The notes under the pieces were generated by a model that was given only the letters and a program-made list of their open reading frames with translations, ran no database searches and was not told the DNA's origin. This document shows, piece after piece, positions 29,722 to 31,988 of a DNA stretch of 48,845 nucleotides. The position numbers and the translations under genes were made by a program. The stretch comes from Prochlorococcus sp. AG-670-O13 (GTDB lineage: Bacteria; Cyanobacteriota; Cyanobacteriia; PCC-6307; Cyanobiaceae), in NCBI GenBank assembly GCA_003209055.1, contig QCTB01000002.1, forward strand, positions 1 to 48,845, given 5' to 3'. Position 1 is the stretch's first letter. Every line of letters begins with the position of its first letter.

Positions 29722-30771
29722 TTGAAAGAATTAACTATATCAAAACCAGACGATTGGCATTTACATTTAAGGGAAGGCATTGTTTTAAAAAATATTATCA
29801 GATTTACATCTGAAGTTTTTGGCAGGGCTATTGTTATGCCAAACACGAAGAAACCAATCATATCAATTAAAGAATGTATTTCTTATAAAAAATCTATATC
29901 TGAAGCATTGCCTAAAAATTCTACTTTCGAGCCATTAATGACAATATATCTGACAGACGAAACAATAAAAGATGAATTATTAGAAGGCTTTAATAATAAT
30001 GTTTTCTTTGCTGCTAAATTGTATCCTGCTAATGCGACAACAAACTCAAGTCAGGGAGTTAAAAAAATAGAAAATCTTTATGAAATATTTGAAGTTATGC
30101 AAGAAATTGGAATGCCTCTTTTAATTCATGGAGAAGTGACCGATCCTGAAGTCGATATCTTTGATAGAGAACACGTATTTATAGATAAAGAACTTTCACC
30201 TTTAATAAAAAGATTTCCAAAATTGAAAATTGTTTTAGAACATATAACTACCTCTCATGCCGTTGATTTTGTTCAGGAGAATAATTTAGGAGCTACTATT
30301 ACACCACATCATTTACACATTAATAGGAATGCGATGTTCTTTGGCGGTTTAAACAGTGACTTTTACTGTTTACCAATTGCTAAGAGAGAAAATAATAGAA
30401 TTGCTTTAAGGAAGGCTGCTACTGGCGGAAAAGAATGTTTTTTCTTAGGTACGGATTCTGCTCCTCATCTAAGACAGTGGAAAGCATTTTGTGGTTGTGC
30501 AGGTATTTTTAACTCTCCAGTAGCCATAGAAAGTTACATAAAAGTTTTTGAGGAGGAAAATGCTCTTGATCAATTCGAAAAATTTGCAAGTTTGAATGGA
30601 CCTAATTTTTACAATCTACCTATTAATAAAGAAAAAATAAGATTAGTATCTAAGCAAAATGAAATTCCAGAATTTATTGATGTAATTGAGAACAATAAGG
30701 TTGTTGGACAAATAAAACCTTTTCATGGAGGAGAAACTTTAACATGGCAACTCGAGGGACTAATTAAATAA
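29722..30771 (+). CDS. pyrC: Dihydroorotase (type II)
   Basis: Cyclises N-carbamoyl-aspartate to dihydroorotate in pyrimidine synthesis. The 349-residue protein has metal ligands His13 and His15 (DDWHLHLREG), a likely carbamylated lysine in FFAAKLYPANATTN near 98, further ligands in PLLIHGE and LEHITT, and the catalytic Asp in LGTDSAPH near 251-258. Start is TTG 29722, 107 bp from the divergent antiporter gene. A hairpin follows 75 bp after the stop. Confidence 0.95.
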   Translation: MKELTISKPDDWHLHLREGIVLKNIIRFTSEVFGRAIVMPNTKKPIISIKECISYKKSISEALPKNSTFEPLMTIYLTDETIKDELLEGFNNNVFFAAKLYPANATTNSSQGVKKIENLYEIFEVMQEIGMPLLIHGEVTDPEVDIFDREHVFIDKELSPLIKRFPKLKIVLEHITTSHAVDFVQENNLGATITPHHLHINRNAMFFGGLNSDFYCLPIAKRENNRIALRKAATGGKECFFLGTDSAPHLRQWKAFCGCAGIFNSPVAIESYIKVFEEENALDQFEKFASLNGPNFYNLPINKEKIRLVSKQNEIPEFIDVIENNKVVGQIKPFHGGETLTWQLEGLIK

Positions 30772-30868: not shown

Positions 30869-30901
30869 GATTCTGAGAAAATGTAAATATTGGGTTAACT
30901 T

Positions 30902-30931
30902 TTGGTTGATTGAGGTTCTTTCCGCTACGCT
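30902..30931 (+). promoter_or_regulatory. Promoter-like duplicate upstream of the tRNA-Leu fragment
   Basis: TTGGTT (30902-30907), an 18-base spacer and TACGCT (30926-30931), then 21 bases to the fragment's first G. The intact tRNA-Leu at 31590 has the same layout: TTGGTT, 18, TACGAT, 21. The conservation of spacing suggests that the fragment still has a usable promoter. Confidence 0.5.
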
Positions 30932-30938
30932 TAGAAAA

Positions 30939-30992
30939 CGCAAATTCCTTTTGGGTGTGTGGCGGAATTGGTAGACGCGCCGGACTTAAAAT
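30939..30992 (+). repeat. 54-bp direct repeat, copy 1 (truncated tRNA-Leu)
   Basis: Matches 31576-31629 in 53 of 54 positions; the two copies are 637 bp apart, in the same orientation. It covers 14 bp of leader plus 40 bp of tRNA. Confidence 0.9.
30953..30992 (+). pseudogene. tRNA-Leu 5' half (truncated duplicate)
   Basis: The 40 bases match the intact tRNA-Leu(UAA) from its first base through the D arm and anticodon loop (ending CTTAAAAT), then the sequence departs completely. The match continues 14 bases upstream of the tRNA, making 54 bases with one mismatch: T30956 against A31593, which breaks the fourth acceptor pair. No variable arm, T arm or acceptor 3' strand follows, so it cannot make a tRNA. 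Its break in the anticodon loop is where tyrosine recombinases often cut tRNA genes. It may also be the 5' part of a short RNA ending at 31060. Confidence 0.8.
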
Positions 30993-31030
30993 GAAATTGA
31001 TAACCTAATACAATAGCGAACAGGTCAATT

Positions 31031-31065
31031 AGGGATTGGGGTAAAACTCAGTCCCTATCTTTATT
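31031..31065 (+). terminator. Terminator-like hairpin downstream of the tRNA-Leu fragment
   Basis: AGGGATTGGG (31031-31040) pairs with CTCAGTCCCT (31047-31056), ten pairs including two G-T, with the loop GTAAAA; the sequence ATCTTTATT follows. It has G+C well above its surroundings. A transcript from the duplicated promoter would be about 100-110 bases long if it starts near the tRNA fragment and ends here. Confidence 0.5.
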
Positions 31066-31198
31066 TATAACCTATCCACATTGGAATAAATATCCAACAC
31101 ATAATCTAGCGACTTATAAACCATTAAATTTCGCAGTATTTTTAAAAGAATTTTATTAATTTTGAGTTTTTTTAACTTTTGACCACTAGCTGAAATAT

Positions 31199-31390
31199 TT
31201 ACTCTGATTTTTCAATAGGAAAAATAACAGCTAATCCAAGATATATCAAAATTGGAATGCCAAAGGTGAAACATCCAGAGATGAAAAAAACTAATCGCCA
31301 GAAAAAAACATTTCCTCTGTTAGATTTTTCGAGACCTTTGCAAACGCCTAAAAACCAGGAACCTTTTTTCGCTCTGATAATGCTCGACAT
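31199..31390 (-). CDS. PspC-domain small membrane protein
   Basis: 63 residues with the PspC pattern: a short start (RAKKGSWFLGVCKGLEKS), then two hydrophobic stretches (VFFWRLVFFISGCF and FGIPILIYLGLAVIFP). Family members are membrane proteins linked to envelope stress; single-domain short forms are common and poorly characterised. It is the only gene between the two tRNA-Leu copies and is read opposite to them. The DNA on both sides (31066-31198, 31391-31538) holds no other gene that I can support. Confidence 0.8.
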   Translation of the reverse strand: MSSIIRAKKGSWFLGVCKGLEKSNRGNVFFWRLVFFISGCFTFGIPILIYLGLAVIFPIEKSE

Positions 31391-31538
31391 TTATTTTTTC
31401 AATTAAGAATAATTATTAATAACATATCAGCGATCTTATTTTTTACTAGTAAATATTTGCATAATTCTAAATAACCTAATTCTAAAAATATCCAGCGCGT
31501 CTATTGCTTCCTTAAAAGTGTAAATATTCGCATTTTTC

Positions 31539-31568
31539 TTGGTTAAAAGTGATACTTTCGGCTACGAT
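31539..31568 (+). promoter_or_regulatory. Promoter of tRNA-Leu(UAA)
   Basis: TTGGTT (31539-31544) and TACGAT (31563-31568) with an 18-base spacer, 21 bases before the tRNA. The duplicate upstream of the tRNA fragment keeps both hexamers (one base changed) and both distances. Confidence 0.5.
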
Positions 31569-31575
31569 AAAAAAG

Positions 31576-31629
31576 CGCAAATTCCTTTTGGGAGTGTGGC
31601 GGAATTGGTAGACGCGCCGGACTTAAAAT
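31576..31629 (+). repeat. 54-bp direct repeat, copy 2 (within intact tRNA-Leu)
   Basis: Partner of 30939-30992; includes 14 bp of leader and the first 40 bases of the intact tRNA. Confidence 0.9.
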
Positions 31630-31675
31630 CCGTCGAGCGCTTTAGCTCGTGGGGGTTCAAGTCCCCCCACTCCCA
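31590..31675 (+). tRNA. tRNA-Leu (anticodon UAA)
   Basis: 86 bases forming a complete class II cloverleaf. Acceptor arms GGGAGTG (31590-31596) and CACTCCC (31668-31674) pair fully, with discriminator A. The anticodon loop CTTAAAA gives UAA, reading UUA leucine codons. The variable arm is GAGCGCTTTAGCTC and the T arm GGGGGTTCAAGTCCCCC. CCA is not encoded. It has no group I intron, although many cyanobacteria have one at this anticodon. Confidence 0.97.
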
Positions 31676-31754: not shown

Positions 31755-31988
31755 ATGGAAAGTATTTTTAATAATTCATTTGCGACTTTAATTACCTACG
31801 TTGGTATTATTTCTATTTATTTATTATTTATACCGTTAATCCTTTTTTACTGGATGAATAATAGATGGAATGTTATGGGCAAATTTGAGAGATTATGCAT
31901 TTATGGATTAGTCTTTCTTTTTTTTCCAGGTTTAATTTTATTTGCTCCATTTTTAAATCTCAGATTAAGAGGAAATAGCAAAGGGTAA
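31755..31988 (+). CDS. ndhL: NAD(P)H-quinone oxidoreductase subunit L
   Basis: A 77-residue membrane subunit of the cyanobacterial NDH-1 complex, which moves electrons from ferredoxin to plastoquinone in respiration and cyclic flow. Two hydrophobic segments (about 10-33 and 46-66) surround the conserved [16 protein letters not shown]. Length and motif match NdhL. It is followed after 4 bp by a DUF3007 gene, a common pairing in cyanobacteria, then by trpA. Confidence 0.92.

Follow-up and report, generated by a model that had tools for sequence, protein, structure and literature searches.

A partial tRNA-Leu copy in Prochlorococcus as the apparent edge of small, integrase-less cassettes at a cyanophage attachment site

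We analysed a stretch of 48,845 nucleotides from Prochlorococcus sp. AG-670-O13 (contig QCTB01000002.1; the whole stretch is called the window below; GC 31.6%) in which tRNA-Leu(UAA) and a partial upstream copy of it both sit between pyrC and ndhL. The question raised by this locus is why a copy of the promoter region and first 40 nt of the tRNA gene, joined to a hairpin, should be placed 637 bp upstream of the intact gene. An initial annotation had taken the copy for a candidate chimeric small RNA that combines a tRNA-Leu 5' half with a terminator hairpin. The features of the locus, in window coordinates, are as follows.

29722-30771: amidohydrolase gene, taken as pyrC (Pfam)
30902-30931, forward strand: native host tRNA-Leu promoter (TTGGTT-18-TACGCT), left upstream of the putative attL junction (sequence; same layout at empty sites of relatives, eight shown)
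30953-30992, forward strand: tRNA-Leu(UAA) 5' half, attL copy of the attachment core (alignment to the intact gene)
30993 to about 31111, forward strand: phage-type P' arm of attP (77.1% to P-SSP7; 95.7% to IMG/VR contig L126)
31010-31023, forward strand: ACAATAGCGAACAG, P'-arm motif (mostly ACTAGCGNACAG in related phages), possible integrase arm site
31030-31057, forward strand: 11-bp terminator hairpin (folding; conservation in phage arms against controls; compensatory pairs in phage arms)
31104-31111, forward strand: ATCTAGCG, second P'-arm motif, at +143 from the core start (exact in 19 of 23 A/B cassettes, defined below, at +142 or +143)
31199-31390, reverse strand: cassette cargo, 63-aa PspC-domain protein (Pfam PF04024, E 8e-10)
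31491-31503, forward strand: TCCAGCGCGTCTA, P-arm motif at -107, cassette right end (motif chosen post hoc; at most four mismatches in 24/24 A/B cassettes)
31539-31568, forward strand: host-type tRNA promoter now before the intact tRNA (TTGGTT 31539-31544, 18 nt, TACGAT 31563-31568; sequence)
31590-31675, forward strand: intact tRNA-Leu(UAA), with the attR core copy at 31598-31628 (ARAGORN; Rfam RF00005, 59.8 bits)
31755-31988: ndhL (Pfam)

The alignment of the copy with the real tRNA gene spans 115 bases. In the copy, TTGGTT (30902-30907) is followed after 18 nt by TACGCT (30926-30931) and after another 21 nt by GGG at 30953; the initial annotation had described this layout as shared with the real gene, and it does recur there as TTGGTT-18-TACGAT. 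Compared with the intact tRNA, whose G1 is at 31590, positions 30953-30992 show a single difference over the first 40 nt, an A-to-T change at tRNA position 4, and the attL copy of the 31-mer core lies at 30961-30991. The stem pairs 31030-31040 with 31047-31057 (-17.5 kcal/mol) and is followed by TCTTTATTT, the T-rich tail occupying 31058-31066. With the 40-nt half aligned and the hairpin and its tail folded, the annotated chimera of tRNA half and terminator hairpin is confirmed; the hairpin itself stood, but its stem has 11 pairs by folding, not the 10 first counted. An ungapped scan of the window found no second copy of the tRNA 3' half.

When positions 30890-31070 were compared with phage records by blastn, three records of P-SSP7 came out at the top, with a match of 130 bases that includes the hairpin (77.9% identity, phage positions 5850-5977) and that lies between the integrase gene and the T7-like RNA polymerase gene. 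With the tRNA half removed from the query, the match to P-SSP7 remained at 77.1% over 85% of the query (E 6e-11), and the IMG/VR contig L126 is 95.7% identical to the window arm over 163 nt, core included. Against 400 genomes sampled from the family, the window's own arm matched only 5, every one a member of the same genus. For the T7-like cyanophages P-SSP7 and S-TIP37, attP is reported to correspond to the first half of tRNA-Leu, and PCR has shown that P-SSP7 integrates into the tRNA-Leu of MED4 (PMC8776855). Because of the arm match and this known attP position, positions 30953-31111 are identified from their sequence as an attL-type junction, in which the host promoter and the tRNA-Leu 5' half are followed by the P' arm belonging to the attachment site of a T7-like (P-SSP7-type) cyanophage; on the same kind of evidence, the matching right end is assigned to the intact tRNA-Leu at 31590, with its arm motif at 31491. 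A T7-like cyanophage prophage was considered for the window and rejected: an att junction of phage type is present at tRNA-Leu, but only the PspC gene, without phage or PHROG match, lies between attL and attR.

To characterize the attachment site in phages, IMG/VR was scanned for the exact core, which gave 103 stretches; a homologue of the integrase lies ahead of the core in 75 of them, and a homologue of the P-SSP7 RNA polymerase begins 130-210 nt after it in 88. Setting aside 13 stretches (tRNA genes or unrelated sequences) and two that were too short downstream left 88 arms, 73 of them distinct. Every phage arm (88/88) carries a hairpin below -8 kcal/mol with at least five T in the next nine bases. 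A hairpin below -11 kcal/mol with a T-rich tail is found in 73/73 distinct arms, compared with 1/365 dinucleotide shuffles and, by the same -11 kcal/mol criterion, 1/320 random stretches from the same contigs. Since the post-tRNA part alone matches P-SSP7 and the hairpin beats both shuffled and random controls, the arrangement of fragment and hairpin is beyond chance. For covariation, a single arm family was assessed with 28 of the 29 distinct members assigned to it by a rough text rule; there, 98.0% of 252 cells are paired and 12 are changed on both sides; none of 500 shuffles was as high on paired cells and two-sided changes, while two of the five covariation measures do not exceed shuffles. 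In a third arm group, 16 of 18 arms were left unaligned, and in alignment A2 four seemingly misassigned arms were omitted and L102 and L127 were added from the third group. Because MAFFT misplaced the loop gap between two hairpin lengths (A2, A3), the pairs of all arms were counted from the hairpin ends, giving 366 of 369 cells paired over 41 distinct hairpins. Judged by these patterns, the hairpin has the marks of an intrinsic terminator, conserved by compensatory change in phage arms. The initial annotation had suggested a covariance analysis; pairing is kept in phage arms, and the hairpin is weakened in several host copies. Of the switch that the annotation proposed between CCTAAT (31004-31009) and ATTAGG (31028-31033), both segments are present, but in alignments viewed by eye their pairing is not kept in relatives. 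The 28-arm family (L045, L047 and other A4 rows) is the best match to none of the 37 host junctions described below, though it is common in viral contigs, and the arm of P-SSP3 (L032) is similar to it.

In 83 of 84 phage modules, the end of a -10-like hexamer lies 19 or 20 nt ahead of tRNA G1, a count made without a control. To judge from its layout, the free phage attP is a self-contained module composed of promoter-like sequence, tRNA-Leu 5' half and terminator hairpin, after which the RNA polymerase gene follows. An integrating element would have to bring a promoter, because the 5' part of a needed tRNA gene is replaced; the new promoter and 5' half would allow the apparently single tRNA-Leu(UAA) to keep working after integration, and once a phage had integrated, the hairpin would shield its polymerase gene from transcription started at the tRNA promoter. 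One IMG/VR contig (L131) carries a host-type flank, the core, and then a phage arm and polymerase gene (1-123 and onward). It aligns with genome G618 through the flank, of which it contains only about 120 bases, and looks like the attL of a really integrated T7-like cyanophage caught in a metagenome.

To examine the prevalence of the arrangement, we searched 266 genomes of the genus. The core was present within three mismatches in 205 genomes, with at least two matches in 35, and a same-strand tRNA half was located 250-2649 bp upstream of an intact tRNA-Leu in 33 of the 266, after exclusion of G482, where identical copies lie inverted on the same contig, and of G620, whose cores sit at the ends of contigs. 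One carrier is Prochlorococcus MIT 9302, with a cassette of 1525 bp. The upstream copy is more decayed in three further genomes (G011, G349 and G494); that of G022 was too decayed for this count, and genomes with a PspC gene near tRNA-Leu but without a recognisable attL copy (e.g. G585, G529 and G488) were left out. Contig C22 of G482 (L236, L237) has two tRNA-Leu regions in opposite orientation, identical over about 1000 bases, which is likely an amplification or an assembly artefact. The attL-type pattern also matched the alphaproteobacterial MAG contig LFER01000068.1 (L249), which may be chance.

A phage-type arm follows the upstream copy in 37/37 junctions (36 genomes), and these host arms end at +114 to +171, or in four cases at +199 to +211, which is close to where the polymerase gene begins or slightly within it. 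Ahead of the downstream copy, a phage-type arm starting near the end of int was found in 14 of the 37 junctions, seven of which reach into int; in the other 23 a host-type promoter stands there, and these 23 together with G022 make up the 24 A/B cassettes. The -107 arm motif, which in phages of the P-SSP7 type directly follows int, occurs at -106 to -108 with at most four mismatches in all 24 A/B cassettes, whereas 38 of 39 empty sites have at least six mismatches and one has three; this test is post hoc because the motif was chosen after the data had been seen. The attL core is mutated in 24 of the 36 genomes, and the downstream copy has the exact core in all 36. Two cassettes in a row were found in three genomes, G618 (1590 and 1335 bp), G024 and G530 (L226, L254, L255). 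The core farther from the tRNA is the more decayed one in G024 (five versus two mismatches) and in G530 (four versus none), as expected if arrays grow at the tRNA end.

The window cassette, 637 bp long, carries a single gene (PspC domain) and no integrase, and cassettes in general contain one to a few genes. Pfam analysis of 11 cargo proteins (PspC and 10 ORFs) identified PspC, TPR, MORN, OMP-type beta-barrel, YadA-like anchor, DUF4234 and DUF3721 types. Relatives of PspC are present in 20 of 266 genomes (some weak or interrupted), pairwise dN/dS among 11 copies ranges from 0.04 to 0.29 (three pairs not computable), and the 63-aa protein of the window is under purifying selection. Relatives of the YadA-like protein are present in 68 of 266 genomes, at other loci too, and in some genomes as several genes close together (L258-L267). 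The cassette of G546 (L214) has three consecutive ORFs of 165, 126 and 62 aa, the first of which has no Pfam, PHROG or PADLOC match. A crude export and membrane scan, run with no background set, placed 29 of 47 ORFs above threshold. A phage origin of three cargo genes was considered and rejected, PspC having no match in phages or IMG/VR and the TPR and YadA-like genes no relative in viral contigs; known defence genes were likewise discarded, with no PADLOC match for five proteins. Among 10 proteins compared with PHROGs, matches were obtained for MORN (1.8e-25), TPR (6.5e-17) and a 209-aa protein of G018 (1.8e-5), the best families all being of unknown function; the YadA-like protein was marginal (0.009) and PspC had no match. 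A tblastn search of 37 genome stretches with P-SSP7 Int and RNA polymerase gave only one, chance-level match (E 8.6), so that at most short int or polymerase ends remain in the cassettes.

Next, cassettes were compared with the neighboring pyrC gene. The TPR cassettes of G021 and G500 share 94.6% identity, against 81.1% for their pyrC genes, and this pair is best explained by transfer. Cassette identity is above that of pyrC in 13 of 71 pairs, by more than five points in four; since most cassette pairs are no more alike than pyrC, the PspC cassette of the window looks largely vertical within its clade. In a tree of the pyrC 3' part with 74 rows (41 labelled empty, with one core seen; G018, G011, G024 and G530 absent because pyrC is missing), cassette-type labels change 28 times, compared with a shuffled mean of 30.2 and values as low in 27 of 200 shuffles; because only 7 of 71 inner branches are well supported, the tree shows patchiness, not history. 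A match to P-SSP7 Int was found in 0 of 266 host genomes, a search that had no positive control and whose query had found 75 of the 103 viral stretches; if cassettes move, the integrase would therefore probably come from a phage. In the A/B cassettes, including that of the window, a host-type promoter and not the phage P arm adjoins the tRNA, an arrangement that simple integration of a phage does not produce.

If the tRNA promoter and 5' half had simply been duplicated in place and the hairpin had arisen by chance, the promoters of both copies would be similar, as they are; this explanation is contradicted by the phage match, since the DNA downstream of the half is 77-96% identical to attP arms of phages, and by the recurrence of the arrangement across 36 genomes with differing phage-type arms and cargo, and we give it practically no credence. 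Another proposal takes the chimera for a functional small RNA that imitates the D-arm and anticodon loop of a tRNA and titrates enzymes which process or modify tRNA. In its favor, the window has the promoter layout, a nearly intact tRNA half and a strong terminator, and phage genomes contain the promoter-half-terminator unit, complete with a promoter-like sequence of its own. However, core conservation in phages is explained by the need for an attachment site (and the scan demanded an exact core), the mutated host cores and the weaker hairpins of several host copies reveal no conservation beyond the att requirement, the switch pairing is not conserved, and no Rfam family covers the region. As the host copy is decaying and its parts are accounted for by the phage explanation, we reject a regulatory or enzyme-sequestering RNA as the main reading and consider it very improbable; site-specific integration explains the junction. 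In that case, the displaced host promoter would fire into the tRNA half and stop at the hairpin. As the attL core is mutated in most of the genomes and the hairpin weakened, while the downstream core is exact throughout, the host copy appears to be under little constraint, and a chimeric RNA, if made, is probably a short by-product. A by-product was also among the options of the initial annotation, and with the hairpin shared with phages it fits best among its readings. A chimeric RNA made by the phage is possible.

The cassettes could be remnants of integrated cyanophages or of larger satellites, from which the phage genes have been deleted, leaving att arms and captured genes without present mobilisation. 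Consistent with this, DNA homology extends slightly past the polymerase start in four genomes (to +199 to +211) and overlaps the 3' end of int in seven (-181 to -232), decay is seen in many attL cores, the PspC cassette is mostly vertical, and the MORN, TPR (repeat-type) and one other cargo match PHROG families of unknown function. On the other side, the tblastn search for Int and polymerase returned nothing above chance level, arms end at similar points in unrelated cassettes, the three tested cargoes (PspC, TPR, YadA-like) have no relative in viral contigs, arm motifs keep fixed positions even where the intervening promoter is of host type, and tandem arrays exist, so that we hold the remnant explanation to be unlikely. 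A bolder reading, somewhat less likely than not, is that Prochlorococcus and its T7-like cyanophages share this site as a port for gene exchange, at which the integrase of an infecting phage would insert and excise cassettes of 0.25-2.65 kb at tRNA-Leu(UAA), each with a self-insulated att module, and arrays would grow at the tRNA end. The cassettes, which mainly hold one or two genes, frequently encoding exported or membrane proteins, would then resemble an integron whose integrase is lent by a virus. Taken as a whole, an attL-type junction bounding an integrase-less cassette, with any RNA as a by-product, is probably the right explanation of this locus; less surely, the integrase of infecting T7-like cyanophages may mobilise cassettes in trans, and arrays may grow at the tRNA end.

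With these observations, a puzzling tRNA fragment is explained as the boundary of a small element that recurs in Prochlorococcus, which ranks among the most abundant phototrophs. According to PMC8776855, no stable lysogens were found, and traffic of small genes at the shared site is a possible reason why lytic-type cyanophages retain an integrase and attP. The attP of these phages gains a concrete layout of promoter-like sequence, tRNA half and terminator ahead of the RNA polymerase gene, and the insulation hypothesis becomes testable. A published estimate puts integration at 1.6% for group I. Metagenomic reads across host-att-phage junctions could also stem from resident cassettes, which might inflate that estimate.

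The cassettes resemble integron arrays, in which small gene cassettes are inserted successively at one end, but no resident integrase was found here. The elements share the tRNA-Leu target half with the attP and attB of P-SSP7 and S-TIP37 (PMC8776855), and with P-SSP7 also the arm type and its position between int and the RNA polymerase gene. Unlike these phages, the host elements are 0.25-2.65 kb long and have no integrase or polymerase gene, and neither the promoter-half-terminator module nor host cassettes are described in the available text of PMC8776855. A literature search found no paper on these cassettes, and PMC2784084, in the part available, concerns a different phage and site. The tycheposons of Prochlorococcus are likewise cargo carriers at tRNA genes, of 4-200 kb and with a tyrosine recombinase (PMC10872708); the window cassette, with 637 bp, one 63-aa gene and no tyrosine recombinase of its own, was rejected as a tycheposon. 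In an additive genomic island of Methylophilaceae, repeats of part of a tRNA gene likewise mark the units, in that case 20-bp repeats of tRNA-Lys; the repeat corresponds to the last 20 bp of the tRNA, and phage arms are not described in the available text (PMC10872708). The elements also resemble CIMEs, described as decayed ICEs or IMEs that keep attL and attR, lack integration and transfer genes and accrete in tandem at one target (PMC5704250). The cassettes are flanked by attL and attR, and no integration or transfer genes were found inside that of the window; unlike CIMEs, their att arms derive from lytic-type cyanophages, the tRNA 5' part is restored, and the cargo is one to a few genes. 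Because the arms match T7-like cyanophages and not ICEs or IMEs as ancestors, we call the elements CIME-like rather than strict CIMEs. Collectively, they are best read as CIME-like, integrase-less cassettes at a cyanophage attachment site, whose movement, perhaps in trans by a phage integrase, we infer.
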